64,000 bases of DNA from the NCBI GenBank assembly GCA_013376995.1, contig JACAAZ010000003.1:124001-188000 (forward strand). The letters run 5' to 3'. The notes beneath the pieces were generated by a model. The model had not been told where the DNA came from, ran no database searches, and saw nothing but the letters and a program-made list of their open reading frames with translations. Below, one piece after another: positions 4,631 to 59,428 of the stretch. Source of the DNA: Bacteroidota bacterium. Lineage in GTDB: Bacteria > Bacteroidota > Bacteroidia > Bacteroidales > UBA4417. Positions within the stretch are counted from its first letter, which is position 1; each line of letters opens with the position of its first letter. A program made the translations under genes and the position numbers.

Positions 4631-4699
4631 CAAAGTTGAATTGTAGCGCCTGACTTCACCTTACACTATTAATGGAAAGTGTTACATAATTCACATAAT
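4631..4699 (-). promoter_or_regulatory. Shared promoter module P1
   Basis: Read on the minus strand: ATTATGTGAATTATGTAA (4699-4682), 13 bp, ATAGTGTAA (box 4668-4661), 22 bp, and a -7-like CAACTTTG ending at 4631. Spacing is identical to the other 11 copies in the window. It directs transcription into the His-rich lipoprotein gene. Confidence 0.8.
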
Positions 4700-4767
4700 G
4701 AGAAGTATCTCCAACTATTTTGCAATTTCATAATAATAATAACCTCAGAAAGCAAGGATTAAGGATT

Positions 4768-4992
4768 TTACAGCCTGTTTCTCCTTGCTGCACCCAGACA
4801 GAACAAGTATCCAAGCAAAAAGCCGACTCCCATACTAATCAGGATCTGGGGCCATTGCCAACCTGTCATACTGAAAGACATACCTCCCAGCATTGTTCCC
4901 CGGTCGGTATCACAATCAACAATAACCAATATGATCACTATAAAAAGGATAATGGTTGACACAGTATTAATGATACCTCTTTTGCTTATCAT
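4768..4992 (-). CDS. Small two-TM membrane protein
   Basis: A 74-residue protein with two hydrophobic segments (about residues 10-26, IINTVSTIILFIVIILVIV, and 49-67, ILISMGVGFLLGYLFCL) joined by a polar loop with DCDTDRGTMLGG, and a basic C-terminus (AARRNRL). The second segment resembles LapA/DUF-type 'MGVGFLLGYL' helices. It is probably an inner-membrane envelope protein of unknown function. It lies 157 bp downstream of promoter module P2, with no other gene between, and is thus likely a member of the same regulon. Confidence 0.7.
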   Translation of the reverse strand: MISKRGIINTVSTIILFIVIILVIVDCDTDRGTMLGGMSFSMTGWQWPQILISMGVGFLLGYLFCLGAARRNRL

Positions 4993-5302
4993 ATTTTTAC
5001 AGAATTAATGTCATCTCAGCTATTAAACAAGCCTGTGGACAATCTGAATACTCAATTAACTTAATTATAGTTTTCCAGGCCTGACATGAGTTTCAGCCTG
5101 CTCACCATATCCTTCCAATCTTTTGTACAACTGAAACTGGAAGCATAGTAAAGATACCTCCCAGGTTTTGTGCTTGTGTTATACAATTCAAAGATTCATT
5201 TATATAATTCACACATTAACTGTGAGATTATAAAGTATGTAAAGGGTTAATTCTCTAAAGAAATCAACTTCGACACTCTGGAAACAGATAGTGCTGATCC
5301 GG
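4993..5302. other. 310-bp non-coding stretch with promoter P2
   Basis: Holds module P2 (5149-5217) and the roughly 150-nt leader of the two-TM gene. The leader contains an 8-bp inverted repeat AGTTTCAG (5089-5096) / CTGAAACT (5131-5138). The 3' end of the P-type ATPase gene borders the stretch; no convincing terminator was seen. Confidence 0.6.
5149..5217 (-). promoter_or_regulatory. Shared promoter module P2
   Basis: Minus strand: AATGTGTGAATTATATAA (5217-5200), 13 bp, TTGTATAA (5186-5179), 22 bp, -7-like TATCTTTA ending at 5149. It points to the small two-TM gene. Confidence 0.78.
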
Positions 5303-7870
5303 TTAAAGAGAAGAAATTGCCAGGGCTCTCAGGCTCTTATACTTAAAATGTTTGTAAATCTCGAACCAGGTAATTGTTGATAAGCCTGCAAGGCCGCAAA
5401 TTAAAATATTGAAAAGCGGTATTTTCTCAAATTGAAATAATACCAGGAAGAAATTCACATTCAGAATGATAGCGAGAAATGAAATTGCTCCCCCGCTTAC
5501 CCATAATACTGCATTGTTGCGAGTAGCCAGTATCCGGAAAATATTTTCAGTCCACGATCTGTTGGTAAGGATCACTGCAAGGTTTGCAATTATGAGTGTG
5601 ATGAAGGTCATGGATCGTACTTCCTTTTCAGCATACCCCATGTAAAGTCCGGCAAAATAGATGACGAGCGTGGTAATAAGGATACCCAAACCCTGCATGC
5701 AACTGAACAGTATCTTCCTGCTTCCGAAAAATGGTGTATTTATATCTTTGGGAGGCCGGTGCATAATATTTTTCTCAGCTTTTTCGGCTTCAAAAATGAT
5801 GGAACATGCCGGGTCAATGATCAGTTCAAGGAATACAATATGTACAGGCCATAAAATGAGCGGGAAATTCCCCAGCAATATCGGGATCAGTGAGAGACCC
5901 GCTATTGGCACATGTATAGCAAAGGTATAGCCGAAAGCTTTTTGCAGGTTGTCGAATATCCGCCTTCCCATCCGAATTGCGCCAACAATGGAAGCGAAAT
6001 TATCGTCCATCAATACCAGTGATGCTGCTTCCCTGGCTACGTCAGTTCCCTTTTCACCCATTGCGATGCCAATATGTGCTGATTTGAGTGCCGGGGCATC
6101 ATTGATACCATCACCGGTCATTGCAACAATTTCATTATTCTTCTTTAGAGCCTCAACGATTTTGAGCTTTTGTTCCGGGATAACCCTGGCAAAAACATTA
6201 ATATTCCTGATCTTTTCGCGCAGTTCCAATTCTGTCATTTGCTGCAACTCCTGCCCTGTTATACATTCTTCAGGGTTTTGAATTCCTATCTCTAAAGCAA
6301 TGTGCCGGGCTGTTACCGGATAATCTCCAGTGATCATAATTACCCTGATACCAGCCTTGTAACATTCGGAAACAGCCTGGCTTACATTCTCACGAATCGG
6401 GTCTGAAAGGCCAATAAGGCCAATAAAATCGAATGAAAAACCATGCTGAATCTCAGGTAATCCTTTTGTATTGATTTTTGCCTTTGCAACACCCAATACC
6501 CGCAATCCATCTTTTGCAAGCAAACCAACAGCACCCAGCAATCGTTGCTTTTCCTTTTTTTCAAGGTGGCATAGGTCAAAAATGGCTTCGGGGGCTCCCT
6601 TAGTTGCAATGATCCTTTCCTGGGTCCCTTTGTGGGAAAAAACCCTCGACATGGCCATAAGTTCTCTGGAAAGAGGGTATTCCTTTATCATCTCCCAATT
6701 CTCATGGACATGATCAGTACCCTTCAGGTAGAAATCACCCAAATGGGTGATTGCCTTTTCCATAGGATCAAAAGCATTCACCTGGCTGGAAAGTATTCCA
6801 AATTCAAGAATTTCATGAAATTCGGAAACTAAATCTGTTTTTTGGTTGACAGCAAGGAAATCTTTCCCGTTATACAAATGTGTAACTGTCATTTTGTTTT
6901 GCGTAAGGGTTCCTGTTTTGTCGGTACATAATACGGTTGCGGAACCTAATGTCTCAATTGCAGCTGGTTCCCTGGTCAGGACTTTCTTTTTGGACATACG
7001 CCAGGCACCAAGCGCCATGAAGACAGTGAGAATAACAGGAAATTCCTCGGGTAAGATTGCCATGGCCATTGTTATTGCTGCAAGAAACCCATTCAGTAAA
7101 CTGCCATGGGTAAGGGTATAACCTATTACTACCAGCACACAAAGTATAGCTGCAATGATCGTAAGCTTCCTGACCAATGATCCCATTTCCAGTTTTAAAC
7201 GGGTTGGTTCGGGTTTTACATCCTGAAGTGCCTTACCTATTTTACCGATTTCGGTATTTATACCTGTTCCAGTGACACGTGCAATACCATTTCCCTGGAC
7301 TATCATTGATCCGGAAAATACAAAGGGTAAATCATCACCTCCAGGCTGAATATTTTCCAGGACCCCGTTCCATGCATTTTTCCTTACAGGTATTGATTCA
7401 CCGGTTAGCAAGGATTCATCTACCAATAAATTAATTGAATTCAAAACTGTGGCATCGGCAGGTATCCTGTCGCCTTCCTGGACAATGATTATGTCATCGG
7501 TTACTACTTCAATGCCTGCAATACGCAATTCAACACCATCCCTGATTACAAGAGCCCTGGGGCTTGCAAGGTCCTTCAATGCATCCAATGCCTTTTCAGT
7601 CTTCTTTTCCTGGAAAAATTCTATTCCCATTATAACAAAGACAAATCCCAGGAGAATGATGCCCTCACGCAGATCGCCCATTACCATATATATACTGCCG
7701 CAAGCAACCAGCAAGATGAACATAGGTTCCCTAACGACCTTGATGGCAATGGAGAAAAATGATTTGGGTTTGGAAGAAGGCAAGCTATTGAAGCCTTCGG
7801 AACGCAGTTTTTCCCCGGCCTGTGCAGAGGTTAGACCTTCGTATTGACCTGGAACAAAGAAATTATTCAA
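5303..7870 (-). CDS. Cation-translocating P-type ATPase (Ca2+-type)
   Basis: An 855-residue P2-type ATPase. It has an N-terminal cation-ATPase domain, the actuator motif LLTGESIPV near 155, a membrane-4 motif LPEEFPV near 274, the phosphorylation site CTDKTGTLTQ with Asp near 317, and the hinge motif MTGDGINDAPALKSAHIGIAMG near 590. About ten membrane segments are visible. The PEEFP form of the usual PEGLP motif is typical of bacterial Ca2+/PMCA-like pumps of uncertain ion specificity. No in-frame ATG exists upstream; the TTG at 7870 gives the normal N-terminus. The 226-bp gap to the uspA-like gene contains no shared promoter module. The ion exported could be Ca2+ or another divalent cation. 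Confidence 0.92.
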   Translation of the reverse strand: MNNFFVPGQYEGLTSAQAGEKLRSEGFNSLPSSKPKSFFSIAIKVVREPMFILLVACGSIYMVMGDLREGIILLGFVFVIMGIEFFQEKKTEKALDALKDLASPRALVIRDGVELRIAGIEVVTDDIIIVQEGDRIPADATVLNSINLLVDESLLTGESIPVRKNAWNGVLENIQPGGDDLPFVFSGSMIVQGNGIARVTGTGINTEIGKIGKALQDVKPEPTRLKLEMGSLVRKLTIIAAILCVLVVIGYTLTHGSLLNGFLAAITMAMAILPEEFPVILTVFMALGAWRMSKKKVLTREPAAIETLGSATVLCTDKTGTLTQNKMTVTHLYNGKDFLAVNQKTDLVSEFHEILEFGILSSQVNAFDPMEKAITHLGDFYLKGTDHVHENWEMIKEYPLSRELMAMSRVFSHKGTQERIIATKGAPEAIFDLCHLEKKEKQRLLGAVGLLAKDGLRVLGVAKAKINTKGLPEIQHGFSFDFIGLIGLSDPIRENVSQAVSECYKAGIRVIMITGDYPVTARHIALEIGIQNPEECITGQELQQMTELELREKIRNINVFARVIPEQKLKIVEALKKNNEIVAMTGDGINDAPALKSAHIGIAMGEKGTDVAREAASLVLMDDNFASIVGAIRMGRRIFDNLQKAFGYTFAIHVPIAGLSLIPILLGNFPLILWPVHIVFLELIIDPACSIIFEAEKAEKNIMHRPPKDINTPFFGSRKILFSCMQGLGILITTLVIYFAGLYMGYAEKEVRSMTFITLIIANLAVILTNRSWTENIFRILATRNNAVLWVSGGAISFLAIILNVNFFLVLFQFEKIPLFNILICGLAGLSTITWFEIYKHFKYKSLRALAISSL

Positions 7871-8096: not shown

Positions 8097-8582
8097 TTAA
8101 TCATGCTTCTTGGTAGGAATTACGAAAATGGGGATTTTGGAATGTCGCAGAACTTCTTCTGTTACACTTCCAATCAGGATATTTTTCAGCCATTTGCGGC
8201 TATGTGATCCCATCACAATAAAATTGGCATGAATCTCCTTTGCCACTTTCAGAATGGTCTCTGCAACAGCACCTTCTTCCACAATTGTCTGAATAGCATC
8301 ATCCTGCAGATGAATTTTTGATTTGGCAAGATATTGCAAAGTGGCTTCCTTGAGCGCTTCGCCATTATCAGCAGTCAGTGGAACCAGCCCCTGAATACCA
8401 TTGAACCCCATTATAGGAGAATATTCTTCGGAGGAATAATAAATAAGGTCAGAAACTACATGCAGCAAAACAACCTCCGCATCCATGGACCTGGCAACGA
8501 TATATCCTCCTTCAGCAACTTTTTGGGCAGTTGGATCATAATCCAATGCTATCAATACTTTGGTGATCTTGGTTGTTTTCAT
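8097..8582 (-). CDS. Universal stress protein (UspA family)
   Basis: A 161-residue single-domain Usp. The N-terminal strand KVLIALDYDPTAQKVAE carries the family's conserved Asp, and the ATP-binding signature G-2x-G-9x-G(S/T) appears as MGSHSRKWLKNILIGSVTEEVLRHSKIPIFVIP near residues 123-155. It is thus likely an ATP-binding Usp of the UspFG/MJ0577 type. It is cytoplasmic and linked to survival under stress. Immediately upstream of its ATG (24 bp) lies a six-copy 7-bp tandem repeat that could alter expression by slippage. It is a single gene, separate from the neighbouring ATPase. Confidence 0.92.
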   Translation of the reverse strand: MKTTKITKVLIALDYDPTAQKVAEGGYIVARSMDAEVVLLHVVSDLIYYSSEEYSPIMGFNGIQGLVPLTADNGEALKEATLQYLAKSKIHLQDDAIQTIVEEGAVAETILKVAKEIHANFIVMGSHSRKWLKNILIGSVTEEVLRHSKIPIFVIPTKKHD

Positions 8583-8918: not shown

Positions 8919-9278
8919 TCATTCTACTTTGGTTTCATCCAGGTCATTATGATCATCACCACCAAGGCTGTAATAGTTGTTTTCTTCATCTTCATTTCCT
9001 ATATCTTCTGCTTCATCGTCCAATTCTGAACCAGGAACGTCCATGTCATTTAATTGACTAATGAATTCAAATCCAACGCCTTCTATTTTGACTGATCGCT
9101 TATTGTTGTTTGGCTCTTTCAACCGGGTCAGATCCTCGGGATTGAGGTTTCTTTCCTCCTTATACCTGTAATAGATATCCTCTTTGGCAGGATATAACGG
9201 GTATCCCGTTAATATATCAGGAGTGTGGTTACGGACTTGTATAACAGGCAGGTTCCTATTTTGAGATCTTTCTATCAT
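8919..9278 (-). CDS. Small acidic Bacteroidota-specific protein
   Basis: A 119-residue soluble protein starting at the ATG at 9278. A longer frame reaching 9362 is excluded because the promoter module P3 (9299-9367) covers that extension. The middle has PLYPAKEDIYYRYKEE, and the C-terminus is strongly acidic (DVPGSELDDEAEDIGNEDEENNYYSLGGD). Proteins ending in 'DVPGSELDDE...EENNYYSLGGD' are familiar from Bacteroidota genomes as uncharacterised proteins; I know no function. The leader is about 14 nt if transcription starts 7 bp after the -7 box. It is likely a member of the shared-promoter regulon. Confidence 0.8.
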   Translation of the reverse strand: MIERSQNRNLPVIQVRNHTPDILTGYPLYPAKEDIYYRYKEERNLNPEDLTRLKEPNNNKRSVKIEGVGFEFISQLNDMDVPGSELDDEAEDIGNEDEENNYYSLGGDDHNDLDETKVE

Positions 9279-9298: not shown

Positions 9299-9367
9299 CG
9301 AAGTTCTGAAGTATCCAATGCCTATGTATTACACAACTTCCTGAAAGACTTACATCTTTCACACATT
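9299..9367 (-). promoter_or_regulatory. Shared promoter module P3
   Basis: Minus strand: AATGTGTGAAAGATGTAA (9367-9350), 13 bp, TTGTGTAA (9336-9329), 22 bp, a weak -7 (GAACTTCG) ending at 9299. It drives the acidic-protein gene (ATG 9278). Confidence 0.72.
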
Positions 9368-9467: not shown

Positions 9468-9536
9468 AAAGTGTGAAACATGTAAGTATGGATGAAAATT
9501 ATGTAAGCATTTCACTTTGGGGGCAATCTACCTTTG
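9468..9536 (+). promoter_or_regulatory. Shared promoter module P4
   Basis: Plus strand: AAAGTGTGAAACATGTAA (9468-9485), 13 bp, TTATGTAA (9499-9506), 22 bp, and a perfect -7 TACCTTTG (9529-9536). It points to the 9782 gene, with a long leader. Confidence 0.78.
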
Positions 9537-9781
9537 ACTATTCCAGCAAGGGAGCATTGCACAACTAAATCCAGCATTATCAGTCCGGATCATCAACCGC
9601 TTCCAACCTTGTTTTCTCGCTCCATGCGCGGTTAGTCGTTCATTCAACATGGACTTAAACCTGATCGGGCAATATTTCCAAAGTACAGTATGAAAAAAAG
9701 CAAAAAGAGCTTATAAGTCTCTATCTACGCCGCATCCACAAAATTTTTTTTTCACTCATCGCTTCTAAAACCCAAATAAAT

Positions 9782-10042
9782 ATGAAAAGATCAAATACTC
9801 AAGTGTTAGCTTCACTTATCATTTCACTACTCATTTCGCTGCCATTTGCCAACTACACATTTGCGCAACCCCAAATTTCACCTCCTCCTGGCCTTACAAA
9901 CAGCGGACATGCCTCAAGTTCAGCTGAGCATGCACCTTCAGCTCCTGTAGGTGAAGGAATTTTTGTGCTGGTAACCCTTGGAATAGCCCTTTCTATTCGT
10001 AAACTGTCAAAATTCAAAAGGAAAGTTACACGTCAGAATTAA
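9782..10042 (+). CDS. Small exported PPPG / single-TM protein
   Basis: An 86-residue protein with a signal peptide (SLLISLPFANYTFAQ), a short proline-, serine- and histidine-containing linker (PQISPPPGLTNSGHASSS) and a C-terminal membrane helix with basic tail (APVGEGIFVLVTLGIALSIRKLSKFKRK). Small 'signal peptide - PPPG - GxGxxxLxxxGxAyxxxKx' proteins are common in Bacteroidota, from memory; their role is unknown. The C-terminal hydrophobic helix and basic end resemble sorting-signal architecture, but no matching enzyme is in the window. It lies downstream of module P4 and 17 bp before the next gene, so the two may be co-transcribed. Confidence 0.75.
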   Translation: MKRSNTQVLASLIISLLISLPFANYTFAQPQISPPPGLTNSGHASSSAEHAPSAPVGEGIFVLVTLGIALSIRKLSKFKRKVTRQN

Positions 10043-10059: not shown

Positions 10060-10431
10060 ATGAAAACCCGGATATTCCTGTTGATGACCCTATGTATGAT
10101 TTTAACCTGTGTTAATGCACAAAACCAGCAAGTTAAGATGATAAACGTTGGTATTGTTGAAGCAACAGACCCTGACTCAGGACAAAATCTTACGTATAGG
10201 ATCATCTCAGGAAATTCTGAGAAGTTCTTTTCAATTGATCCAGTTGCAGGAATGCTAAGGGTCAAGCAATCAGCCTATTCTACATTTGCTGGTCAAAGGA
10301 CCTGGCAACTTACTGTGAATGTATCCGACAACGATGCCAGTAAACCCTTGAGTTCAAGTGCTGTAATCCAGGTGACTCTTAAGAAAGATCTTCTTAACCG
10401 GAACACAGTTCCAATAATAACAAAACTATAG
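10060..10431 (+). CDS. Exported single cadherin-like domain protein
   Basis: A 123-residue protein with a signal peptide ending near ILTCVNA. The rest is a single cadherin/He_PIG-like domain: VGIVEATDPDSGQNLTYRIISGN, FSIDPVAGMLRVK, then WQLTVNVSDNDAS and a final strand ending VIQVTL. The ATDPD and SDND motifs are typical Ca2+-binding positions of cadherin repeats. Cadherin-like domains are usually arrayed in large adhesins; a stand-alone exported copy is unusual. There is no anchor or secretion signal at the C-terminus, so it is probably periplasmic or released. It follows the small exported gene at 9782 and may share promoter P4. Confidence 0.75.
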   Translation: MKTRIFLLMTLCMILTCVNAQNQQVKMINVGIVEATDPDSGQNLTYRIISGNSEKFFSIDPVAGMLRVKQSAYSTFAGQRTWQLTVNVSDNDASKPLSSSAVIQVTLKKDLLNRNTVPIITKL

Positions 10432-10474: not shown

Positions 10475-11035
10475 TCAAATATTCTCAATCGGTGTCCGTC
10501 TTTTCAGCTTGAGATGCTTGTAGTGTGAGGGAGTCATACCGGTCATCTTTTTGAATTGATTTGATAAATGAGCTGCACTGCTATAATGCATCTTATAAGC
10601 TATTTCTGTAATATTCAGTTCATCATATACCAATAACTCCTTAACCCGCTCTATTCGATGGTTAAGTAAAAAATGTTCGATGGTAATTCCCAGGTTTTCT
10701 GAAAAGATATTTGCCAGATAGGTATAATCGTAATTTAATTTTTCGCTTAGATAATCTGAAAAGTTGATCTTTAATTGGGTATCCTGATAATGAATCAGAT
10801 CAATAACACAAACTTTGATTTTCTCGATTAATATGCTCCTGTTGTCATGAATAAGCGCCAGCCCCGACCTGTTGAGTTCAACATTCAGCCTATTCAATAT
10901 GTCAGAGCCAACATCTTCCTCAACCTCCACCTCCCCATATACCAGATTTCTATAATGGAATCCGAATTTATCAAGTTCGGATTTCACTATAAGCAAGCAT
11001 CGGTTACTCACCATATTTTTAATAAAAAGCTTCAT
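10475..11035 (-). CDS. AraC-family regulator with HMA-like N-terminus (paralogue 1)
   Basis: A 186-residue protein. Residues 1-60 (MKLFIKNMVSNRCLLIVKSELDK) resemble an HMA-type ferredoxin fold, but the metal-binding CxxC is reduced to SNRC. A helical linker follows, then a C-terminal AraC double helix-turn-helix (LNITEIAYKMHYSSAAHLSNQFKKMTGMTPSHYK, about 140-175). It has two paralogues in the window (20178-20732 and 49701-50261). It follows the PAS and CheB-CheR genes by 22 bp and is probably the DNA-binding output of that signalling operon. It is a candidate regulator of the shared promoter module. Whether it senses metal is doubtful given the lost cysteine. Confidence 0.88.
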   Translation of the reverse strand: MKLFIKNMVSNRCLLIVKSELDKFGFHYRNLVYGEVEVEEDVGSDILNRLNVELNRSGLALIHDNRSILIEKIKVCVIDLIHYQDTQLKINFSDYLSEKLNYDYTYLANIFSENLGITIEHFLLNHRIERVKELLVYDELNITEIAYKMHYSSAAHLSNQFKKMTGMTPSHYKHLKLKRRTPIENI

Positions 11036-11057
11036 CCTTCAGTATCCAATAATAAAA

Positions 11058-11621
11058 TCAACGTTCTAATTCGCTCTTCAACTTGGTGATATCAATAACT
11101 GACAACAGGCAGTCCTTTTCATCTCCGGCAACAACACCTTCAATATAAACCTCGCACAGCGGCAATGAGGACGTTTCTAAAGTAACTTCACAGGATCCCT
11201 TGGAATTAGTCTCATAAAGTGACGTTAAGAAATCATTGAAAACAGTTTTAGATCCTTCCGAAACGAAAAATCTGAAGTTGCTGTCAACCAGGCTGAATCG
11301 TCTTTCTCCAAGCAAATCAGCCCCTGTGAAGTTTAAATCATGTATGGTCCCATTTTGATTGATTGTAAAAAAGCCAATGGGGGCTAAATCAAACAGTCTT
11401 GTATATTTTCGCAGAGCGGTTTCAGCTGTTTCGTAAGTAAGCCTTAATTCTTCATTCTGCATTTCAAGTTCAATCTGGTGAACCTGCAATTCGTGCAGAA
11501 GTTTTTTTACATCGACCTCTCCTTCTGGCACTTCAGATAATTTTGCATTTTCCTTAAGCTTTTCTTCTGCTTTCATACGCAGCATTTGAGCTTCATTGAA
11601 ATTCATTTCCTGTTCTTTCAT
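11058..11621 (-). CDS. Stand-alone PAS-domain protein
   Basis: A 187-residue cytoplasmic protein. It starts with a helical segment resembling the 'ELQVHQIELEMQNEELR' linkers that precede PAS domains in CheB-CheR and kinase proteins. A PAS domain follows (LFDLAPIGFFTINQNGTIHDLN, about 95-180) and the protein ends with LSVIDITKLKSELER. There is no kinase, cyclase or methyltransferase output, so it is a sensor or adaptor. It overlaps the CheB-CheR gene stop by 4 bp (ATGA), implying translational coupling, and the AraC regulator gene follows. It could relay the CheB-CheR-PAS signal. Confidence 0.85.
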   Translation of the reverse strand: MKEQEMNFNEAQMLRMKAEEKLKENAKLSEVPEGEVDVKKLLHELQVHQIELEMQNEELRLTYETAETALRKYTRLFDLAPIGFFTINQNGTIHDLNFTGADLLGERRFSLVDSNFRFFVSEGSKTVFNDFLTSLYETNSKGSCEVTLETSSLPLCEVYIEGVVAGDEKDCLLSVIDITKLKSELER

Positions 11622-14560
11622 GGCTTCGCGATTTTAGTAACAACAGTCAAACCTTTTGCATTATCTTGATTATCAGATTGAATATAAATTGAACATTCAA
11701 GAAGTTGAATTTTTTCCCCGGCGGTAATCATATGAATTTCGATTTTACCATCCTGATTTTTGTCAAACCGCTTCTTGATAGCCTGAACAAAGCCATTTTG
11801 ATCTTTTTCAGGGATAAATGCCTTTATGAAATCCTTGTTCAGCACTTCCTCACGTTTTTTACCCAGGAAAGCTTCTGCAATCCTGTTGTATTCGAGTATC
11901 TTAAGATCGTTGGATAGATGAATAATCACATCCTCCGAAATATCAGCATACAGCCTGCTAAGCCTTTCCATTTCGGAATATTTAACTTCAACCTGTTTAA
12001 GGTCAGTTATGTTGATGAAAGTGATCACAAGTCCATCAATCCTGTCATCAAAAGTCCGGTAAGGCATGATCCGTGTTAAGAACCATCTTCCATCTTTTGC
12101 AGGGACCTGCTTCTGAATAAACACGAGGGTATTTAAAACCTCGACTGCATCACTGGCCAGGTTTGGGTATACCAGGTCTGAAACAAGATCGGTGAAAGGT
12201 CGACCAATGTCACTTTTAATAAGTTTAAATATTTTGGTTGCCTGTAGTGTAAAACGCCTGATATTTAACTCTTTATCCAGGAACAGAGTGGCAATATCGG
12301 TGCTGTTCAGCAGGTTCTTCATATCATTATTCGCTCTTGAAGAATCATCGACCTTCGACTGCAATTCTGCGTTCACTGTTTGCAGTTCTTCATTGAGGCT
12401 CTGCATTTCTTCCTTTGATGTGGTCAGTTCCTCATTGGTAGACTGCAATTCTTCGTTGGTTGATTGCAATTCTTCATTTGCTGATTTCAATTCTTCCTGC
12501 GACGTCTGCATCTCTTCGAAAGTTGACTGTACCTCTTCCCTTGAACGAATCAATTCTTCTTCTAATTCAGCCATTCTCTGGCTGCCCGGGTTATTCTTCC
12601 CTTTGGCAGGAGCAGAACTTTTATCCGGATGTCCTTGCAGATCGTTGAAAATGATCATGACCATTCCATGCAATTGTTCCGGCTTATCCAACCATTGAAT
12701 TGTAAGGTTGACCAACTGGGTACCGCCGTTTGTGCCAACCTTCAGGTTATGCAGGATGACGGTTTCTTTTTTTGTAACGGCTTTACGGAATGCAATAGGG
12801 AATTCGTGTCGCAACCCTTCACGCAACATAGCAAAAATGTTCAGGTTAGCTTTGCCGACAGCCGGCTCAAGGTATTTGCCGGTCCTGCCGCTGATATAAA
12901 TAATATCACCATTCTCATTTACCAGTACACCAGCAGGTGAGAATTGCTGCAGTAATAGTTGATCTGCGATTATTTGAATGTTCTGGACTGATTTTTCAGG
13001 CATTGGAATTCCGGTATTGGAAGGTTTATTACGGGAATACGAAGATGGGAAATCCGACAATTCTGGTAACAAAGACGACGATGATCGCTTAAAAATTTTG
13101 AGTTTTGAATCAACAGGGACAAACATAAGATTTTGAGTTCCTATTGTTTCTGAACTGCCCAGCAACATATAGCCTTCAGGGTTTAGACTATAGCCAAAAA
13201 GGCCAAGCAATTTCCGTTGCAGAACCGAATCCAGGTATATCAGTAGGTTACGGCAGGATAAAATATCAATTTTTGTAAAGGGAGGGTGATTGATCACATT
13301 ATGTTGGGCGAACACTATCATCTCCCTGATTTCGGTACTGATTCGGTACGTGTTATCAACCTTGACAAAAAACCGGTTAAGCCGCTCGGGAGAAATTTCA
13401 GAAGTGATATTCGCCTGGAAAATCCCCTTTCTTGCTATTTCTATGGCCTCATTGTCAAGGTCTGTTGCAAATATCTGCAGGGTTAATCCGCAATAGGGGT
13501 TTGTCTTCTCAAGAGCTTCCTTAAAAACAATAGCAAGTGAATAAGCTTCTTCGCCTGTTGAGCAGCCTGGTATCCATGCCCGAATAATTGAATTGCTCCT
13601 CGGGGCTGAAATGATGGATGGGAGAATGACTTCTCTCAGCTTTTCCCAAACAAAGTTATCACGGAAAAAGTTCGTTACACCTATCATCAATTCTTTAAAA
13701 AGAATATCGACTTCACCAGGATTTTCCTGCAGAAAATGAACATAGGAGGATATCTTTTCGATTTTATGTATCCCCATTCGCCTTTCTATACGGCGATAAA
13801 TAGTATTCTTTTTATAGAGTGAGAAATCGTTCCCGGTTCTGATCCTGAGCAGAATAATGATTTTTTCCAGGGCGCTCTGGTCTTTTATGTCCTTGTCGGA
13901 GTCAGATCTAATAGCAGGTATATGCTTAATATATTCCAGCAACAAAGAAGGGATTTCGTTCGCAGGAGCAACAATGTCAGCTTGCACAGAATTTATTGCA
14001 TTGCGGGGCATGCTGTCAAATTTTGCAGAAGCAGGTTCCTGCACCAATACAATGCCATTCTTTTCCTTGATGCTCTTTATGCCAATACTTCCATCTGATC
14101 CCATCCCGGAAAGAATAACAGCTATACTCCGATCAAGAAGGTCTTCTGCGAGGGAACAAAGGAAGAAATCAACTGGAAGACGTAATCCTCTTGCTTCAAC
14201 CGGTTCAAAGAGATGAAGCACGCCCTTAAGGATTGACATGCTCTTGTTGGGAGGAATTACATAAATGCAATCCGGCTTTACCTGCATCCGGTCGGATACC
14301 TGGAGAACTTTCATCCCGGAAATCCGCTGCAGCAATTCGGGTAATAAACCCTTTTGTGTGGGATCCAGATGTTGAATAACCACATATGCAAGCCCGCTGT
14401 TGTCAGGAACATTTCCCAGGAATTGTTCCAAAGCCTCAAGGCCCCCGGCAGATGCGCCAATACCCACAATCGGGAACTGATCAGAAACAGACTGAGGATA
14501 TCTTGCCCTGACAGCTGTTTCCTGTTTCAACTGCCCGGATTTCTGTTTCTTTTGAATCAT
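11618..14560 (-). CDS. CheB-CheR-PAS fusion protein
   Basis: A 980-residue multidomain protein. An N-terminal CheB methylesterase domain (FPIVGIGASAGGLEAL with Ser near 37, VVIQHLDPTQKGLLPELL, LSGMGSDGSIG) is followed by a CheR methyltransferase (GCSTGEEAYSLAI, SCRNLLIYLD). A long coiled coil with repeated 'EELQSTNEEL' units comes next (about 660-745), and two PAS domains complete it. No receiver domain or kinase is present. Such fusions are widespread in Bacteroidota but are not part of classical chemotaxis there, and no other che genes are seen here. It is likely the sensory head of an operon with the PAS protein and AraC regulator. The upstream gap (14561-14977) has no shared promoter module. 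Confidence 0.93.
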   Translation of the reverse strand: MIQKKQKSGQLKQETAVRARYPQSVSDQFPIVGIGASAGGLEALEQFLGNVPDNSGLAYVVIQHLDPTQKGLLPELLQRISGMKVLQVSDRMQVKPDCIYVIPPNKSMSILKGVLHLFEPVEARGLRLPVDFFLCSLAEDLLDRSIAVILSGMGSDGSIGIKSIKEKNGIVLVQEPASAKFDSMPRNAINSVQADIVAPANEIPSLLLEYIKHIPAIRSDSDKDIKDQSALEKIIILLRIRTGNDFSLYKKNTIYRRIERRMGIHKIEKISSYVHFLQENPGEVDILFKELMIGVTNFFRDNFVWEKLREVILPSIISAPRSNSIIRAWIPGCSTGEEAYSLAIVFKEALEKTNPYCGLTLQIFATDLDNEAIEIARKGIFQANITSEISPERLNRFFVKVDNTYRISTEIREMIVFAQHNVINHPPFTKIDILSCRNLLIYLDSVLQRKLLGLFGYSLNPEGYMLLGSSETIGTQNLMFVPVDSKLKIFKRSSSSLLPELSDFPSSYSRNKPSNTGIPMPEKSVQNIQIIADQLLLQQFSPAGVLVNENGDIIYISGRTGKYLEPAVGKANLNIFAMLREGLRHEFPIAFRKAVTKKETVILHNLKVGTNGGTQLVNLTIQWLDKPEQLHGMVMIIFNDLQGHPDKSSAPAKGKNNPGSQRMAELEEELIRSREEVQSTFEEMQTSQEELKSANEELQSTNEELQSTNEELTTSKEEMQSLNEELQTVNAELQSKVDDSSRANNDMKNLLNSTDIATLFLDKELNIRRFTLQATKIFKLIKSDIGRPFTDLVSDLVYPNLASDAVEVLNTLVFIQKQVPAKDGRWFLTRIMPYRTFDDRIDGLVITFINITDLKQVEVKYSEMERLSRLYADISEDVIIHLSNDLKILEYNRIAEAFLGKKREEVLNKDFIKAFIPEKDQNGFVQAIKKRFDKNQDGKIEIHMITAGEKIQLLECSIYIQSDNQDNAKGLTVVTKIAKP

Positions 14561-15850: not shown

Positions 15851-16546
15851 TTATTTCTTTCCTACAGGTACTTCAGCAAAGTTTTCTTTGATTATCGTTT
15901 CCTGGGCTATGTTCATTGCTGAGAGTTGTTCTTCGACTTCATCCATCATTTGCGGAGGGCCGCAAAGGTATATATGCCGGACATTGCCAGGGATATGCTC
16001 ACGCAGGAAGTCTTCCGATATATGTCCGTAGGAACATCCCTGAACCACTTCGTCGGATAAGATGTTGATGAAGTTTTCCCCGAGCATCTCCCTGAATTCC
16101 CTGTTCAGGATAATATCGTTTTTTGTCTTATTGGCAAAAATGAGCTTGTTCCCGCCAAGTGAATTTGTCGATTGCAGGCTTCTAAGGATAGAAATGAAGG
16201 GTGTAACGCCTGCCCCACCTGCAATGAACACTCCCTCTCCTTCATACATCAAGGTTCCAAAAACATCGCGCAGTATTAACACATCATCCTGTTGAATCAG
16301 TCGAAATTGGTTAGTTACACCTCTATGGGAAGGATAAATTTTTATTGTAAATTCCAGGAAATAATTCCCAGGAAGGCAAGTAAATGTAAATGGCCTTTTC
16401 ACTTTCTTCCATCCATTCCTGTTAATGGAAAGTTCTGTGGCTTGCCCTGGCATGAATTCATAATTCTCAGGCTTTTCGGTCACAACTTTCAGCACATCAT
16501 GAGTTAGGTGCATAACAGATATAACCTTTACTTCAAATTGGTTCAT
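15851..16546 (-). CDS. FAD/NAD-binding flavodoxin-reductase-like oxidoreductase
   Basis: A 231-residue protein of the ferredoxin-NADP+ reductase fold. An FAD domain (PGQATELSINRNGWKKVKRPFTF with the RPFT FAD signature) precedes an NAD(P) domain (GEGVFIAGGAGVTPFISILRSL, YLCGPPQMMDEVEEQL). It lacks a 2Fe-2S domain and its cysteines, so electron transfer would use a separate partner protein. Such proteins are often called flavodoxin reductase family 1 or class I FNR. The start is ATG 16546. A copy of the shared promoter module (P5) lies 340 bp upstream with no gene between, so the gene is probably controlled by it through a long leader. Confidence 0.85.
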   Translation of the reverse strand: MNQFEVKVISVMHLTHDVLKVVTEKPENYEFMPGQATELSINRNGWKKVKRPFTFTCLPGNYFLEFTIKIYPSHRGVTNQFRLIQQDDVLILRDVFGTLMYEGEGVFIAGGAGVTPFISILRSLQSTNSLGGNKLIFANKTKNDIILNREFREMLGENFINILSDEVVQGCSYGHISEDFLREHIPGNVRHIYLCGPPQMMDEVEEQLSAMNIAQETIIKENFAEVPVGKK

Positions 16547-16885
16547 ATTTTAATCTTTTTACCCGGATGAAGAAGGCTAAATACATCCTGATTTCCGGTC
16601 AGTAATGAATGATTGAATTCTCTGATCAGGAAGTGTGAAACTGGTTTCAACTTCAGCTGGTCAGACTGATATCTACTAATAACTTTGGCAAATGGTCCTT
16701 ACAAGGCTCTTTTTAAGGTAATTACTAAGATTGCAAATCTTAAGCCTGAGTTGTGTACTCTAACCTCAATGAGCAATTGGTTTATTACATAAATCATTTC
16801 TGAAACGAATGCGTTCAGGGCTTCAACCAGATACGTACCAGCTCCCTTAGTTTTAGTTTTGTCAGCATAAATTGATTCAGTTATG

Positions 16886-16954
16886 CAAAAATATCTGGCG
16901 ATGAGTGAAAGCTTGTTACAAAACTTTTATAAAGACTTACATAATTCACACATT
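16886..16954 (-). promoter_or_regulatory. Shared promoter module P5
   Basis: Minus strand: AATGTGTGAATTATGTAA (16954-16937), 13 bp, TTTTGTAA (16923-16916), 22 bp, -7 TATTTTTG ending at 16886. It points to the FNR-like gene with a long leader. Confidence 0.8.
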
Positions 16955-17285: not shown

Positions 17286-18821
17286 TCAGTAAGAGGTTTT
17301 CAGTTCAACCCTCCTGTTTTTTGCACGGCCCAGTGAGGTTGCATTATCAGCAATTGGCCTGCTTTCGCCATATCCAATTGCGGTAAGTCGCGATTCCATG
17401 ATCCCTTTACCCATTAAATAGGTTTTGACAGATTCAGTACGTTTCTGAGAAAGAGCAAGGTTATAAGCGTCATCACCCTGGCTGTCAGCATGTCCTTCGA
17501 TGAGTAAATTGGCTTCTTCATAACGCTTTAGGATTGAAGCGAGTTCATCCAGTTGAACCAATGAGGCTACCTTGAGTTTATCGCTATTGGTTTCGAAGAA
17601 TATTTTGCTTGCTATTTGAGTAATCTTTTTTACATCAGCAATGGCCATTTCAGGGCAACCTTTATTGGCAATAGTTCCTTTTACAGTAGGGCATCGGTCA
17701 TCCAAATCGGAAACGCCATCTCCGTCACTGTCGGGACAACCCTTCATGGACAGGATGCCGGCTTTATCGGGACAAGCATCTTCTTCATTTACAATACCGT
17801 CCTTATCATTATCCAAGGCACAACCGGTTGCGTCAACCTTATATCCCGGGTGCGTATTTGGACATTTGTCATCAATATCAGCCACTCCGTCATTATCTGC
17901 ATCTGGGCATCCTTTTAATGCAGCAGATCCGGCAAATTCGGGGCACCTGTCATCCTTGTCGGCAATACCGTCCTTATCAGCATCCGGGCAACCCATCAAG
18001 GCAGCCGGGCCACTGAGTTCGGGACATTTATCATCCTTATCTGCAATACCGTCGCCATCCATATCCGGACAACCCTGCAGATCTTTTATACCTGCCTGAT
18101 CGGGACAAGCATCCAGGTAATCGGCTACGCCATCACCATCTTTATCAAGAGGGCATCCTGCCTTGTCAACAGGAACTGAAGCAGGAGTATTGGGACATTT
18201 ATCACGATAATCGGATATGCCATCATGATCTGCATCCTTTTTCTTTCCAAAATTGAAGGAAAATCCGACAGTATGCAATAGGTAGGCATCATTTTCATGA
18301 GCTACCACTCCATCCCTGTTATCCCCTGTGGAATAATAGAAAGTTTCCTGCAGATTGAGCATTACTGTTGGGTTCAGGCGGAAATTGATACCACCTCCCC
18401 CGGCAGGAGCAATATAATCCATCTTTTTCTCCGAGATGTTAATATTCTTATCGAATAACATTCCGCCAGCACCGGCAAAAAGGTAAGGCCTAACAGCATA
18501 TCGCGCTCCCAGGATATTAAACCTTATGTTCAGGGTTGCTGCGGTAAAGTCTCTCCTGAAATTACCCGAGGAACGGTTATAACCCACTGTCCCTTTTGTA
18601 ACAAATAAACTGGCGTCGAAATGGTTTGTCAGGTATCTTGAAAAAGAAATTCCTCCAACTCCATAACGGGCCATATCGGTCTTGTAAAAGTCACTACCGA
18701 GGTCGCCTTTATATTGACTTATTCCTCCATGTAAACCGATATTCCATTTCTTATCTATTGTTTGAGCGTTAGCGACTAAAAACACGGCTAAACAAAGAAA
18801 CGCAAGTACTAATTTTTTCAT
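17286..18821 (-). CDS. OmpA-family outer-membrane protein with TSP3 repeats
   Basis: A 511-residue protein with a signal peptide (LCLAVFLVANA). An N-terminal eight-stranded barrel (about 25-195) follows, then a run of thrombospondin type-3 repeats (about 200-375) in which D-x-D-x-D-G-x-x-D calcium motifs and DDKCP/DACP cysteines recur about seven times. The C-terminal OmpA domain (FFETNSDKLKVASLVQL, IEGHADSQGDDAYNLALSQKR, GYGESRPIADN, RAKNRRVEL) binds peptidoglycan. This is the typical Bacteroidota OmpA that ties the outer membrane to the wall. Module P6 lies 137 bp upstream of the ATG. Confidence 0.95.
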   Translation of the reverse strand: MKKLVLAFLCLAVFLVANAQTIDKKWNIGLHGGISQYKGDLGSDFYKTDMARYGVGGISFSRYLTNHFDASLFVTKGTVGYNRSSGNFRRDFTAATLNIRFNILGARYAVRPYLFAGAGGMLFDKNINISEKKMDYIAPAGGGGINFRLNPTVMLNLQETFYYSTGDNRDGVVAHENDAYLLHTVGFSFNFGKKKDADHDGISDYRDKCPNTPASVPVDKAGCPLDKDGDGVADYLDACPDQAGIKDLQGCPDMDGDGIADKDDKCPELSGPAALMGCPDADKDGIADKDDRCPEFAGSAALKGCPDADNDGVADIDDKCPNTHPGYKVDATGCALDNDKDGIVNEEDACPDKAGILSMKGCPDSDGDGVSDLDDRCPTVKGTIANKGCPEMAIADVKKITQIASKIFFETNSDKLKVASLVQLDELASILKRYEEANLLIEGHADSQGDDAYNLALSQKRTESVKTYLMGKGIMESRLTAIGYGESRPIADNATSLGRAKNRRVELKTSY

Positions 18822-19242
18822 CTGAAAATAATTTTAAGGTTAAAATCGCTTCCACCTGAGGCGGATACACATGTCCGCCCTCCGGCGAAGCATACTTGTT
18901 TATCCAGCAACTGCGGGATATACATTTCATATTATTTATTTCGTTGATTAATAGCATCAAAGGTCTCTATCCCAGCGCGTACAGGTGTTACAGAATAACC
19001 TATAAGATTTACATGATTCACACATAAATAGCTATGTTTGATCTTGTTTAGCTAAAAATCACCCGGCAAAAGCATGCAAAAAAAGCCACCAGGCCAGGAA
19101 CCTTTGCCTTCCGGCGGGTTATTGGGTAAAATGGGAGATTCCCAGGTACCTGGTGACAGTCTGGTACTTTTCGGGAAACTAAGGCTGAAAAGTATAACTA
19201 CCTGTAAAGCAATGAATAATGTATATTTAAGATAATCGGAAA
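18822..19242. other. 421-bp gap with P6 and small palindromes
   Basis: Carries promoter module P6, an inverted repeat GGCGGA (18860-18865) / TCCGCC (18874-18879) within the OmpA leader, and a 12-bp palindrome CCAGGTACCTGG (19142-19153) that pairs imperfectly with CACCAGG at 19087-19093. The latter may terminate the AraC-kinase transcript ending at 19243. No convincing gene is present. Confidence 0.55.
18958..19026 (-). promoter_or_regulatory. Shared promoter module P6
   Basis: Minus strand: TATGTGTGAATCATGTAA (19026-19009), 13 bp, TTCTGTAA (18995-18988), 22 bp, -7 GACCTTTG ending at 18958. It drives the OmpA gene (leader about 130 nt). Confidence 0.8.
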
Positions 19243-20732: not shown

Positions 20733-21052
20733 AAAATATCCAGTATTATCTTACAAATCATTGCTAACAGCTTATTTAATTTCTTGGTTAATTAAAAACT
20801 GAACTCATAACTACTTTAATTGGGGATTCAACAGGCTGCTTTCAGAATCAATGCTCAAATTCAATTATTTCAGTATACAATTTGGTCAGCTTAGCAAATG
20901 TCAATATGTAATTCAATTTAGTTAAACTTAAAAACAGGATAACGAGTACTAAAACTCGTGAATACAAATGAAATCGTTTTTAAGAAGCCTTTTTATTATT
21001 GATATTATATGAATCGACTCTGTTAAACAGTTGGTTAAGTTATTTGCAGGTG

Positions 21053-47066: not shown

Positions 47067-47696
47067 CTATTTTGTCATTTTAAGCTGCTCTGTTGGCTCC
47101 AACTGCATTGTAAGATCCTTTTCGCCAATATTGGCTAATTCGACTTCGCACAAAATAGATACTTCTTCACCAACCATCATGCCTCCGGCTTCCAGGAGAT
47201 TATTCCAAACCAGGCCCCAATCTGTCCGGTTTATTGTCCCGGAGACATAAAATCCGGCTTTCTCATTTCCCCAGGGGTCAACGGTTATTCCGCCAAACTG
47301 AACATTCAATTTGATATTTTTTGTTATTCCAAGTATTGTCAATTCGCCCCATAGTTCACGATTTCCATCAGCATCCGGTTGCCCGATTGTACTGGAGGTA
47401 TAGGTGATCTGGCTATGTTTCTTTACATCGAAAAAATCAGGGCTCTTAAGATGTTCATCCCGCTTCGTATCACCTGTGTCCAATGAGTTTGCATCAATCC
47501 AAAGATCGATTTCTGCAGTGGAAAAGTCTTTATAGCTGGTATAGATACTGGCATCAAAAATCTTGAAGCTGCCTCTTACACGCGAAATCATCAGGTGCCT
47601 TATCTTAAAGCCAATTTCACTATGTGCCTGGTCAACTGCCCATTTGGTTCGAGTTGTACTCGCATTCGTTTTCATTTTTATTACTTTAATAAACAT
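47067..47696 (-). CDS. YceI-family lipid-binding lipocalin-like protein
   Basis: Up to 209 residues; the ATG at 47675 (MKTNASTTRTKWAVDQAHSE) is an alternative start. YceI landmarks: WAVDQAHSEIGFKIRHLMISRVRGSFKIFDASI, SLDTGDTKRDEHLKSPDFFDVKKHSQITYTSS, GELTILGITKNIKLNVQFGG, and DWGLVWN near the end. YceI proteins form a barrel that holds isoprenoids or amphiphiles. There is no signal peptide, so this member is cytoplasmic, unlike E. coli YceI. It is part of the P12 envelope operon. Confidence 0.9.
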   Translation of the reverse strand: MFIKVIKMKTNASTTRTKWAVDQAHSEIGFKIRHLMISRVRGSFKIFDASIYTSYKDFSTAEIDLWIDANSLDTGDTKRDEHLKSPDFFDVKKHSQITYTSSTIGQPDADGNRELWGELTILGITKNIKLNVQFGGITVDPWGNEKAGFYVSGTINRTDWGLVWNNLLEAGGMMVGEEVSILCEVELANIGEKDLTMQLEPTEQLKMTK

Positions 47697-47728
47697 TTAG
47701 CTGCTTGACAGATAACTTGATCTCTGAT

Positions 47729-48289
47729 TTATTTAAAGGACAGTCCGATGGTTGAAACTCCTGTTGAAAGATCGAGAAAACCGCCTACGTGATGATTAAA
47801 ATGGTACTCAGCTCCTGCGTGAAAATCAAAGAAGAACGGGCTCCCAGCCTGGTAATAACCCCTGTCACCATTATAACCATTATCCCATGAAGTCCTGATA
47901 ATTGCAAATCCCAATGAGCCGGCAAGGTAAAAATCCCATTTTGGCCCTGCCTGGAAAATCTGGTCAAAGTAATAGCTGCCTTTGACTCCAATTGGAATGA
48001 TGGATTCGTGGAAGTAATAGGTATTATCGTTCCAATAATAACCATTCCGGTATGAAGAGAAACTAATGAACGGGGCCAGTGTAAAATTACGGGCCACATC
48101 AAATTCATAGTTGATGTCGACAACGGGGACAGAGTGGCCAACGTAATTATAGTAACCCCCGTAACCCCCTATTCCGATTCCAAGGTTAAATGTATTTCCG
48201 TGTTTTTCCGAATACCCGGTTTTCTGGGCGGAAACAATGGCTCCGCAAAACAGCAGAGCTAACAGAATGGTAAAGAATGTTTTTTTCAT
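47729..48289 (-). CDS. Outer-membrane beta-barrel protein
   Basis: A 186-residue protein with a signal peptide (ILLALLFCGAIVSA). Alternating aromatic and small residues (FNLGIGIGGYGGYYNYVGHSVPVVDINYEF, FTLAPFISFSSYRNGYYW, FFFDFHAGAEYHFNHHVGGFLDLSTGVSTIGLSFK) match a small eight-strand barrel. The final Phe-Lys pattern suits outer-membrane insertion by Bam. It is the third gene of the P12 operon. No specific function is known. Confidence 0.8.
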   Translation of the reverse strand: MKKTFFTILLALLFCGAIVSAQKTGYSEKHGNTFNLGIGIGGYGGYYNYVGHSVPVVDINYEFDVARNFTLAPFISFSSYRNGYYWNDNTYYFHESIIPIGVKGSYYFDQIFQAGPKWDFYLAGSLGFAIIRTSWDNGYNGDRGYYQAGSPFFFDFHAGAEYHFNHHVGGFLDLSTGVSTIGLSFK

Positions 48290-48350
48290 GGTTATTGCTT
48301 AGTAGTTAAATTTGAGTTTAAACAAATACCTGGTTATACCTGCTTTATTG

Positions 48351-49016
48351 TCAATTATTTACAAGACGGTATCCAAGTGTACCCTGGTACCAGGCATTTT
48401 TATACCTCGGTGATGAAGCTGATCCATCTCCTTTATTTGAGGAAATATCCCAGCCAGACCTGAAACTGATCACAAAATGGTTGAGGTCATAGTCAAGTCC
48501 GCAGGAAAAGCTTACATTATTTCTTCTTACATCAGCATTTTTGAATTCCGTCTCCTGCTCGAGGGTAATGGACCCACTAGAAAACGCATCATGTTCGCTG
48601 ATCAGGTATGAGTATTGAGACCCTGCAAGGAGATTGAGGCTCCTGGTAGGTTTGAATGAGATCATTAAAGGGATGTCAGCAAAGGTAGTTGTCCGTATAA
48701 ACTCATATTTGTTGCCGAGCAATTCACCTGTTGCATGGAACCCTTTTTGAGAGATCAGTATTTCAGGCTGAAAACCGAATAACTTGCTCATCGGTATAGC
48801 AACGAACACTCCTGTTGCAAGTCCAAACCTTGGATCAGTATTAAACTGCATTCCCTCAACATTGTAAATGGAAGAGTAGTTTGCACCTAATTTCACACCC
48901 AACTGGATCATGTCCCGAAAATCAGAACCAGGAACGAAATTGTTGACTTTTTCTTGAGCTGAGCATTGAATTGCAATACATCCAAACAGCAATATTGCAA
49001 TGATTGTCTTTTTCAT
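48351..49016 (-). CDS. PorT-like outer-membrane beta-barrel protein
   Basis: A 221-residue protein with a signal peptide (AILLFGCIAIQCSA). The barrel begins IQLGVKLGANYSSIYNVEGMQFNTDPRFGLATGVFVAIPMSKLFGFQPEILISQKGFHATG, a typical outer-membrane beta-barrel PF13568 (PorT) pattern. Later strands (FADIPLMISFKPTRSLNLLAGSQYSYL) support it. It lies between the putative periplasmic protein and the 47.7 kb barrel in the P12 operon. Confidence 0.85.
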   Translation of the reverse strand: MKKTIIAILLFGCIAIQCSAQEKVNNFVPGSDFRDMIQLGVKLGANYSSIYNVEGMQFNTDPRFGLATGVFVAIPMSKLFGFQPEILISQKGFHATGELLGNKYEFIRTTTFADIPLMISFKPTRSLNLLAGSQYSYLISEHDAFSSGSITLEQETEFKNADVRRNNVSFSCGLDYDLNHFVISFRSGWDISSNKGDGSASSPRYKNAWYQGTLGYRLVNN

Positions 49017-49090
49017 TTTTAGAGTTTGCCAATAATAATTTCATTGATATGCTGGCAAAAGAGAACACAGGTTCTAAGCATGCTCATGAA

Positions 49091-49603
49091 CTAGCGCTTT
49101 TTGCCTTTTCCACCATCATGACCATTGTTTTGCTTCTGATTACGGCCATTATTTTGCCTGACACCTTGTCTCTGATGGTTCTGTTCATGTGAATTCCCGG
49201 GTCCCATATTACCACGTCCGGGCCTTTCACCAATCGTTCTCTGTGCTTCGCCATGATAACCCCTGTGATACTTCGTCCTATATTCCCTGTAATGGGCATA
49301 AGGCGCATCTCCATGATAATCAGTCATTACTACTTTATAACCATTATAAAGGTCATAATTCCTGTATCGGCCTGGAAGGTATGTACGATGAATCCAGCGC
49401 CCCCCGCTGGAATAGATGAACAGGGATGTTTGAAGGTCATAATAAGCCTGTACATCGGGAAGATAATAGTAACGGGCCTCGGCATATCCGACCGGTCCCC
49501 AGGGCGGTGGTGTTCCAATATTGATACTCATAGAGACCTGGGCTTGAGCTGCGACTGCAAAAAACAAGAGTATTCCTGCAGGGATAAGTTGTAGTTTCTT
49601 CAT
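49091..49603 (-). CDS. Exported basic glycine/asparagine-rich protein
   Basis: A 170-residue protein with signal peptide (AGILLFFAVAAQAQ). The middle holds WGPVGYAEARYYYLPDVQAYYDLQTSLFIY-type aromatic motifs and SSGGRWIHRTYLPGRYRNYDLYNGYKVVM, common in Bacteroidota periplasmic proteins. The tail is rich in Gly, Asn, Gln, His and Arg (GNSHEQNHQRQGVRQNNGRNQKQ). It is the first gene of the P12 operon; the -7 box is 37 bp upstream of the ATG. Function unknown. Confidence 0.8.
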   Translation of the reverse strand: MKKLQLIPAGILLFFAVAAQAQVSMSINIGTPPPWGPVGYAEARYYYLPDVQAYYDLQTSLFIYSSGGRWIHRTYLPGRYRNYDLYNGYKVVMTDYHGDAPYAHYREYRTKYHRGYHGEAQRTIGERPGRGNMGPGNSHEQNHQRQGVRQNNGRNQKQNNGHDGGKGKKR

Positions 49604-49640
49604 CTTCTATTGTTAGGTGGAATACGTAATTACCACGAAA

Positions 49641-49709
49641 CAAAGGTGAAAATTTACATGTCGGAATACATTACACAATACTGATTAAGAGTTACATGAT
49701 TCACACATT
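49641..49709 (-). promoter_or_regulatory. Shared promoter module P12
   Basis: Minus strand: AATGTGTGAATCATGTAA (49709-49692), 13 bp, TTGTGTAA (49678-49671), 22 bp, -7 CACCTTTG ending at 49641. Its distal end overlaps the last codons and stop (49701) of AraC paralogue 3. It drives the periplasmic protein-barrel-barrel-YceI-TM operon. Confidence 0.85.
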
Positions 49710-59422: not shown

Positions 59423-59428
59423 CGATCT

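Follow-up and report, generated by a model that had tools for sequence, protein, structure and literature searches.

A fixed 69-bp promoter module and its association with a small AraC-type protein in Bacteroidota

Modules and genes in the window

The window, i.e., the whole 64,000-nucleotide stretch of DNA analyzed here, carries 12 copies of a 69-bp module, ten of which are on the minus strand and two (those at 9468 and 38740) on the plus strand. The modules and the genes that follow them are listed below.

Module 1, 4631-4699, minus: upstream of a small lipoprotein gene (4349-4594), then OYE flavin oxidoreductase (3201-4289) and DnaJ-like (2292-3182) genes
Module 2, 5149-5217, minus: upstream of a small membrane protein gene (4768-4992)
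Module 3, 9299-9367, minus: upstream of the genes for a 119-aa acidic protein (8919-9278), Usp (8097-8582) and a cation P-type ATPase (5303-7870)
Module 4, 9468-9536, plus: upstream, after an ORF-less 245-bp leader, of the genes for an 86-aa exported protein (9782-10042) and a cadherin-like protein (10060-10431)
Module 5, 16886-16954, minus: top-scoring copy; NAD-binding oxidoreductase gene (15851-16546) 339 bp on, the leader being ORF-less
Module 6, 18958-19026, minus: upstream of an OmpA/TSP3 protein gene (17286-18821)
Module 7, 21053-21121, minus: AraC gene (20178-20732) 320 bp on, after an ORF-less leader with a terminator-like hairpin (20942-20959)
Module 8, 25838-25906, minus: lipoprotein gene (25353-25811) 26 bp on, then hybrid kinase (23211-25337), ECF sigma (22702-23199) and DUF6600 (21258-22685) genes
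Module 9, 38190-38258, minus: upstream of genes for an lmo0937-like protein (37950-38108) and YtxH (37603-37896), those at 37227-37577 and 36657-37055, and an AI-2E transporter gene (35548-36660)
Module 10, 38655-38723, minus: upstream of the CsbD gene (38436-38618), divergent from module 11
Module 11, 38740-38808, plus: upstream of the Mla operon (39060-41622; MlaE, ATPase, MlaD), with a leader of 251 bp
Module 12, 49641-49709, minus: upstream of the gene at 49091-49603, an OMP gene (48351-49016), that at 47729-48289 and a YceI gene (47067-47696); contains the TGA stop codon of the AraC gene at 49701-50309

Three genes in the window encode AraC-type regulators.

10475-11035, minus: AraC-type regulator (Atx1-like N-terminal domain plus AraC HTH), in an operon with the genes for a PAS protein (11058-11621) and a CheB-CheR-PAS protein (11618-14560)
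20178-20732, minus: divergent AraC-type paralogue, followed by a histidine kinase gene (19243-20136)
49701-50309, minus: AraC-type regulator with its stop codon within module 12, used for the AlphaFold model described below

In modules 10 and 11 (38655-38808), the distal sites face one another across 16 bp. As the two are divergent, transcription of the CsbD gene and, in the other direction, of the Mla operon is predicted to start from one intergenic stretch. No ORF is present in the 245-340 bp that follow four of the modules (9537-9781, 16547-16885, 20733-21052 and 38809-39059), and the hairpin at 20942-20959 is found about 95 bp downstream of module 7. A short regulatory RNA after this module is possible, but the leaders are not conserved in the relatives. 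The idea that the leaders of modules 5 and 7 are conserved sRNAs received no support, the BLAST similarity staying within the module and ending around positions 41-50. No RNA family was detected in the window by Rfam, the sub-threshold matches at 16.5-21.2 kb being noise. The right end of the window (51000-64000) carries transporter, ADP-ribosylglycohydrolase-type and SusD genes, and no module.

Sequence and geometry of the module

All 12 modules are present at the coordinates listed above and their 69 columns aligned without gaps, confirming the twelve sites and the fixed 69-bp layout proposed by a first-pass annotation. Searching the window for AATGTGTGAATNATGTAA with up to three mismatches yielded 13 matches against 0.57 expected, and none of 100 shuffles gave as many; the 13th match, at 33649, is not accompanied by the remainder of the module. 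When each copy was scored by the position weight matrix derived from the other eleven, the scores ranged from 33 to 55 bits, while first-order Markov controls reached about 8 bits at most. Conservation in the 12 copies is found mainly in columns 1-21, 30-40 and 63-69, and the spacers vary from copy to copy. Thus, the modules resemble operator-promoter modules, unlike copied repeats.

The direct repeat of ATGTAA and GTGTAA boxes 21 bp apart, as first annotated, held, and the shared element appeared to be wider, with AARTnRTGTAAC occurring twice exactly 21 bp apart. TGTG is present at the distal site alone and absent from the proximal one. The -33 TTTG element, claimed to be missing, is indeed absent, and columns 38-44 read AACACTT in a profile made from 150 modules. 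The proposed TAnnTTTG-like -7 box held only in part: the initial T is not conserved in the window, in which the box reads nAnCTTTG/A, and TAnCTTTG is no more than a trend across the 150 modules. Likewise, the claim of no variation in spacing held in the window; elsewhere, the gap to the -7 box is mostly 22 bp and is 21 bp in about one tenth of the modules.

The 150-module profile can be written as ATGTGTGAATnATGTAACTT...AARTTRTGTAAC-N21/22-TAnCTTTG. The second site was found at exactly +21 bp for 210 of 228 distal sites and 1-4 bp off this position for none, and 22 bp separate the second site from the -7 box in 172 of the 210 pairs (21 bp in 17). The median distance from the -7 box to the start codon is 37 bp over 105 loci. 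This distance and the fixed -7 box, together with the absence of modules in reversed-sequence controls, support the reading of the modules as promoters, which had been put forward in the first annotation. A sigma-70 style promoter scan of the window yielded no more matches than chance, as expected for Bacteroidota.

In Flavobacterium psychrophilum, the TAnnTTTG -7 box was mapped at -12 to -5 (PMC9723704). By this placement, +1 is therefore expected at column 74, which is a purine in 71% of the modules, and a start there would set the half-site centres near -64 (distal) and -43 (proximal). Two half-sites in a fixed 21-bp register, of which the proximal one replaces the upstream promoter element, are one mark of a class-II AraC-type promoter, and the module shows it. 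In such promoters, an A box and a B box one turn apart are also expected in each half-site; here, the distal half-site carries both TGTG and TGTAA, and a B-type box alone is conserved in the proximal half-site. The modules and their geometry are directly shown by the alignments.

Distribution of the module

A sequence-only model built from the 12-module alignment (R1) was searched against the whole 5.05-Mb genome and found the 12 modules of the window again at 45-54 bits. The genome contains 21 modules, all with the identical 69-bp layout, and 13 of them lie within 51 kb, the 13th clustered module being located 1.3 kb beyond the window (C23:122615-122683). The remaining eight are distributed over three contigs, namely C1 (five, including a weak one with an E value of 0.05), C2 (one) and C41 (two). 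A reversed-sequence control model found nothing at E<0.1 in the same genome.

Among 60 relatives, the module was detected in 20 or 21 genomes, with up to 38 copies in a genome that are often clustered. Of 198 Bacteroidota genomes sampled evenly over the phylum, 29 (including that of the window) possess the module, and the reversed control gave single weak matches in two of the 198. R1 detected 179 modules around 80 AraC relatives from named genomes, and the matrix made from the 150 modules found 286 modules in 93 of 105 loci but none in the same 1.6 Mb reversed. The hosts include Prolixibacteraceae, Flavobacteriaceae, Cyclobacteriaceae, Saprospiraceae, Emticicia, Sunxiuqinia and Pontibacter, as well as two Ignavibacteriota bins. 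In the whole genomes of cultured strains, we counted 13 modules in Emticicia aquatica, 11 in Sunxiuqinia indica, 2 in Pontibacter populi and 1 in Flavobacterium paronense, and none in Empedobacter brevis and Dyadobacter sp.

The search of this genome and its relatives with a model of the module, which the first-pass annotation had suggested as a check, found the module across the phylum. Its claim of a clustered regulon held, as 13 of the 21 modules are in 51 kb and clusters recur in the relatives. Altogether, the control-corrected distribution of the module shows that the putative regulon is common to genomes across the phylum Bacteroidota. As for the claim that the regulon was undescribed, we found no description of the module or the AraC subfamily in the open-access literature searched, which does not cover subscription journals.

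AraC-type proteins and their association with the modules

Four AraC-type paralogues of 184-202 aa are encoded in the window or at its left edge. The module at C23:122615-122683 precedes a CsbD gene, which is followed by the fourth AraC gene and the genes for a PAS hybrid kinase and a receiver protein. Pfam HTH_18/HTH_AraC domains were detected in all three copies in the window, as required for the C-terminal double helix-turn-helix of this family. The AlphaFold model of the protein encoded at 49701-50309 has a pLDDT of 90.7, and its C-terminal domain matches the MarA, GadX-type and YesN domains with a probability of 1.00, and SoxS as well. The N-terminal domain adopts a beta-alpha-beta-beta-alpha-beta fold, for which Foldseek gave probabilities of 0.98-1.00 to Atx1, GolB and HAH1. 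MVSxRC is found in place of the MxCxxC metal motif; thus, the domain was not assigned to the metal-binding HMA domains. Arg12 and Cys13 do not vary across 103 sequences, while position 10, corresponding to the first Cys, is Ser in at least 90%. The N-terminal domain is predicted by the model to be Atx1-like in fold, and metal binding is not shown. No specific family for the protein was found in NCBIfam, the matches being far below the cut-offs and resting on the HTH domain.

As the 80 loci around AraC relatives were fetched by AraC similarity, the frequency of AraC genes there is biased, and only the comparisons in the relatives and in the phylum sample are unbiased; other regulator families were left out of the co-occurrence test. 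Among the relatives, all 10 with a strong AraC match possess modules, against 10 of 49 others (p=3e-6), and seven congeners without modules had no AraC homologue match. In the phylum sample, modules were found in 27 of 95 AraC-positive genomes and 1 of 102 others (p=5e-9) or, considering strong AraC matches alone, in 17 of 24 genomes and 11 of 173 others (p=3e-12). The remaining 7 of these 24 genomes have no module at the threshold. In the same sample, which was not anchored on AraC genes, 11 genomes have a module and an AraC gene no more than about 2 kb apart, against 0.2 expected. Both the co-occurrence and the proximity are thus shown by these counts. Some genomes with good modules lack an AraC homologue at E<=1e-16 (G014, G019, G037 and G251), some being draft bins, and only weaker homologues were found in two others with modules, G013 and G046; G009, also with modules and without a strong AraC match, is 64% complete. 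The Flavobacterium-like clusters L174 and L175 carry 8-9 modules with no AraC gene within the fetched 20 kb, so that control there would be in trans.

A module lies no more than 200 bp upstream of 36 AraC genes, likely serving as their own promoter, while 23 AraC genes have a module at the stop codon, the TGA of the gene often being inside the TGTGA of the module. The two kinds are partly separated in the tree. The AraC TGA was seen within or at the edge of the TGTGA in the window (49701-49709) and at L094, L107, L110, L117, L119, L125, L132 and L136. In this arrangement, which is seen in many unrelated species, the end of the AraC coding region overlaps the operator of the next gene.

Genes for a hybrid histidine kinase and a receiver-only protein come directly after the AraC gene at 48 of the 81 loci for which enough sequence was available, as in the operons AraC-PAS hybrid histidine kinase-receiver-only at L029:6760-10253, L101:9911-13034 and L125:10001-13308. 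The operon itself is shown by its recurrence, and we found no description of this three-part signalling operon in the open-access literature searched. Its conservation predicts, by inference, an input from the kinase and receiver to the AraC protein, which itself has no receiver domain. The operon at 10475-14560 in the window comprises the genes for the CheB-CheR-PAS protein, the small PAS protein and the AraC regulator, and a CheB-like gene (L030:7894-8517) also adjoins modules on contig C1. At L064:73-2410, modules lie near three tandem AraC paralogues, one of which is highly divergent (MVSHCC, long branch).

The first annotation had held an activator to be required and named the AraC proteins as candidates. 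The co-occurrence, proximity, autoregulatory position and class-II geometry support this claim, with no binding data at hand. We regard the AraC protein of about 190 aa as very likely the regulator of the modules, its binding and activation being inferred.

Target genes

The commonest first genes after the modules are those for the AraC protein (about 43), CsbD (29), ice-binding-like proteins, lmo0937-type (DUF5670) membrane proteins and MlaE. YtxH, Usp, BON, OmpA, Dps, ferritin, DUF892, DUF6600, YceI and response regulators are among the further targets. Two genomes from different families of the class (L174 and L175) have the flavin oxidoreductase, the Mla operon, CsbD, the lmo0937 protein and YtxH with its neighbours in common with the window. 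The targets had been taken as an envelope-stress set, which held in part. The set typical of general stress (CsbD, Dps, Usp, YtxH, BON and DUF892) is present, and the targets are not confined to the envelope, including Dps, ferritin, Usp, DUF892 and oxidoreductases. Since Dps, ferritin, Usp and DUF892 go beyond the envelope, we prefer "general stress" over "envelope stress" and consider a general stress set with a large envelope share to fit better. That the regulon serves general stress, rather than the envelope purely, is suggested by gene content alone, without expression data.

Alternative explanations

The repeat may be bound by a response regulator of the LytTR or OmpR type acting under the hybrid kinases, the AraC gene being merely another target. 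In favour of this possibility, LytTR-type regulators also use direct repeats about 21-22 bp apart, response regulators are among the targets, and a LytTR-like gene (L032:3644-4438, its domain unconfirmed) is near the modules on C41. However, the response regulator of the AraC operon is receiver-only and has no DNA-binding domain, those proteins of the window that were scanned showed no LytTR domain, and it is the AraC gene that recurs beside the modules and co-occurs with them, albeit in a test confined to this family. We regard this alternative as unlikely. Still less likely is recognition of the module as a promoter by an alternative (ECF) sigma factor, for example that encoded at 22702-23199, even though this gene is in a module-driven operon of the window and similar genes were found in two relatives. 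The conserved columns 1-40 are far upstream of the usual sigma contacts, the -7 box is the ordinary TAnnTTTG of Bacteroidota sigma-A (PMC9723704), and no ECF gene is apparent in other clusters such as L101 and L175. We rejected the ECF promoter on the latter two grounds.

Many near-identical copies clustered in one region might also be expected if, rather than operators, the modules were a mobile or repeated element that transposition had multiplied. Nevertheless, the spacers and both flanks are unrelated between copies, the DNA similarity between genomes stops near position 41-50, and the geometry is conserved across families and classes. The divergence of spacers and flanks led us to reject this reading, which is all but excluded.

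Proposed mechanism

In the model proposed here, the small AraC protein controls a stress-protection regulon through the modules, which would be sigma-A promoters of class II that depend on this activator. This reading is likely (roughly 0.78), with binding, activation, the signal path and the biological role all inferred. Two small AraC-family monomers would bind the direct repeat, whose strong distal site, AATGTGTGAATnATGTAAC, is centred at about -64 and whose weaker proximal site, AARTTRTGTAAC, at about -43; they would sit on the same face of the DNA exactly 21 bp, or two helical turns, apart. As the proximal site lies where the missing -33 element would be expected, we propose that RNA polymerase is brought to the TAnCTTTG -7 box by the activator and not by the DNA. 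In many species, the AraC proteins would activate their own genes. The stress signal is probably reported by the hybrid histidine kinase and receiver-only response regulator of the AraC operon and sensed or passed on, again probably, by the Atx1-like N-terminal domain with its one invariant Cys. Several points speak against this reading, namely the good modules in genomes without a strong AraC match, the strong AraC matches in genomes without a module, the clusters L174 and L175 with no AraC gene nearby, the lack of a receiver domain in the AraC protein, and the leaders without ORFs at modules 4, 5, 7 and 11, whose length is not usual for a simple promoter.

A bolder reading, which we hold tentatively and cannot favour at present, is that, in much of Bacteroidota, the general stress response is governed by the AraC-hybrid kinase-receiver operon. 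A repurposed copper-chaperone fold would then be the input domain of the AraC protein, at least 10 stress promoters would be served by the housekeeping sigma factor, and the AraC regulon would take the role that RpoS, SigB or PhyR-EcfG plays elsewhere.

Comparison with known systems and significance

The proposed AraC-module system shares with E. coli AraC at araI1-I2 and Pseudomonas putida XylS at Pm the two tandem direct-repeat half-sites about 21 bp apart. The half-site layout of AraC at araI1-I2 is like the -64/-43 one here, and XylS at Pm uses 15-bp direct repeats, with the activator site overlapping that of the polymerase (PMC5481539). Also shared with the AraC/XylS class-II systems are a proximal site that takes over or overlaps the upstream promoter element, the C-terminal double HTH and frequent autoregulation. 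In contrast to these systems, the N-terminal domain is Atx1/HMA-like rather than a cupin or benzoate domain, the distal site carries an extra TGTG that the proximal one lacks, and a Bacteroidota -7 promoter serves a multi-promoter stress-gene regulon rather than a catabolic operon.

The closest solved DNA-binding domains by fold are those of MarA/SoxS/Rob, which control an autoregulated, multi-promoter stress regulon. These proteins bind a single site of about 20 bp as one monomer, and MarA and SoxS have no sensor domain, whereas a two-site direct repeat and an Atx1-like domain are found here. The RpoS (Proteobacteria), SigB (Bacillus) and PhyR-EcfG (Alphaproteobacteria) regulons include CsbD/YjbJ, Dps, OsmY/BON, YciE-type DUF892, YtxH and Usp, and their content overlaps with the module targets. 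Whereas those regulons depend on an alternative sigma factor, control here is inferred to rest on a DNA-binding activator that works with the housekeeping sigma factor. The sigma motif map of F. psychrophilum, comprising six motifs, contains the same TAnnTTTG -7 box as the modules, and no such AraC module is described in the relevant sections of that study (PMC9723704).

To our knowledge, no master regulator of the general stress response is known in Bacteroidota, nor was one found in the open-access literature searched. A single sequence rule predicts the regulator, operator, promoter class and targets across the phylum, cultured strains such as Emticicia aquatica and Sunxiuqinia indica included, which makes the question directly testable. 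The module is also a potential activator-dependent promoter part for Bacteroidota genetics. For many uncharacterised small stress genes and ice-binding proteins, a function and a rule of control are offered. We found nothing on the regulation of ice-binding-like proteins in the open-access literature searched; those following the modules (PF11999) were seen at L114, L153, L160, L098 and other loci.
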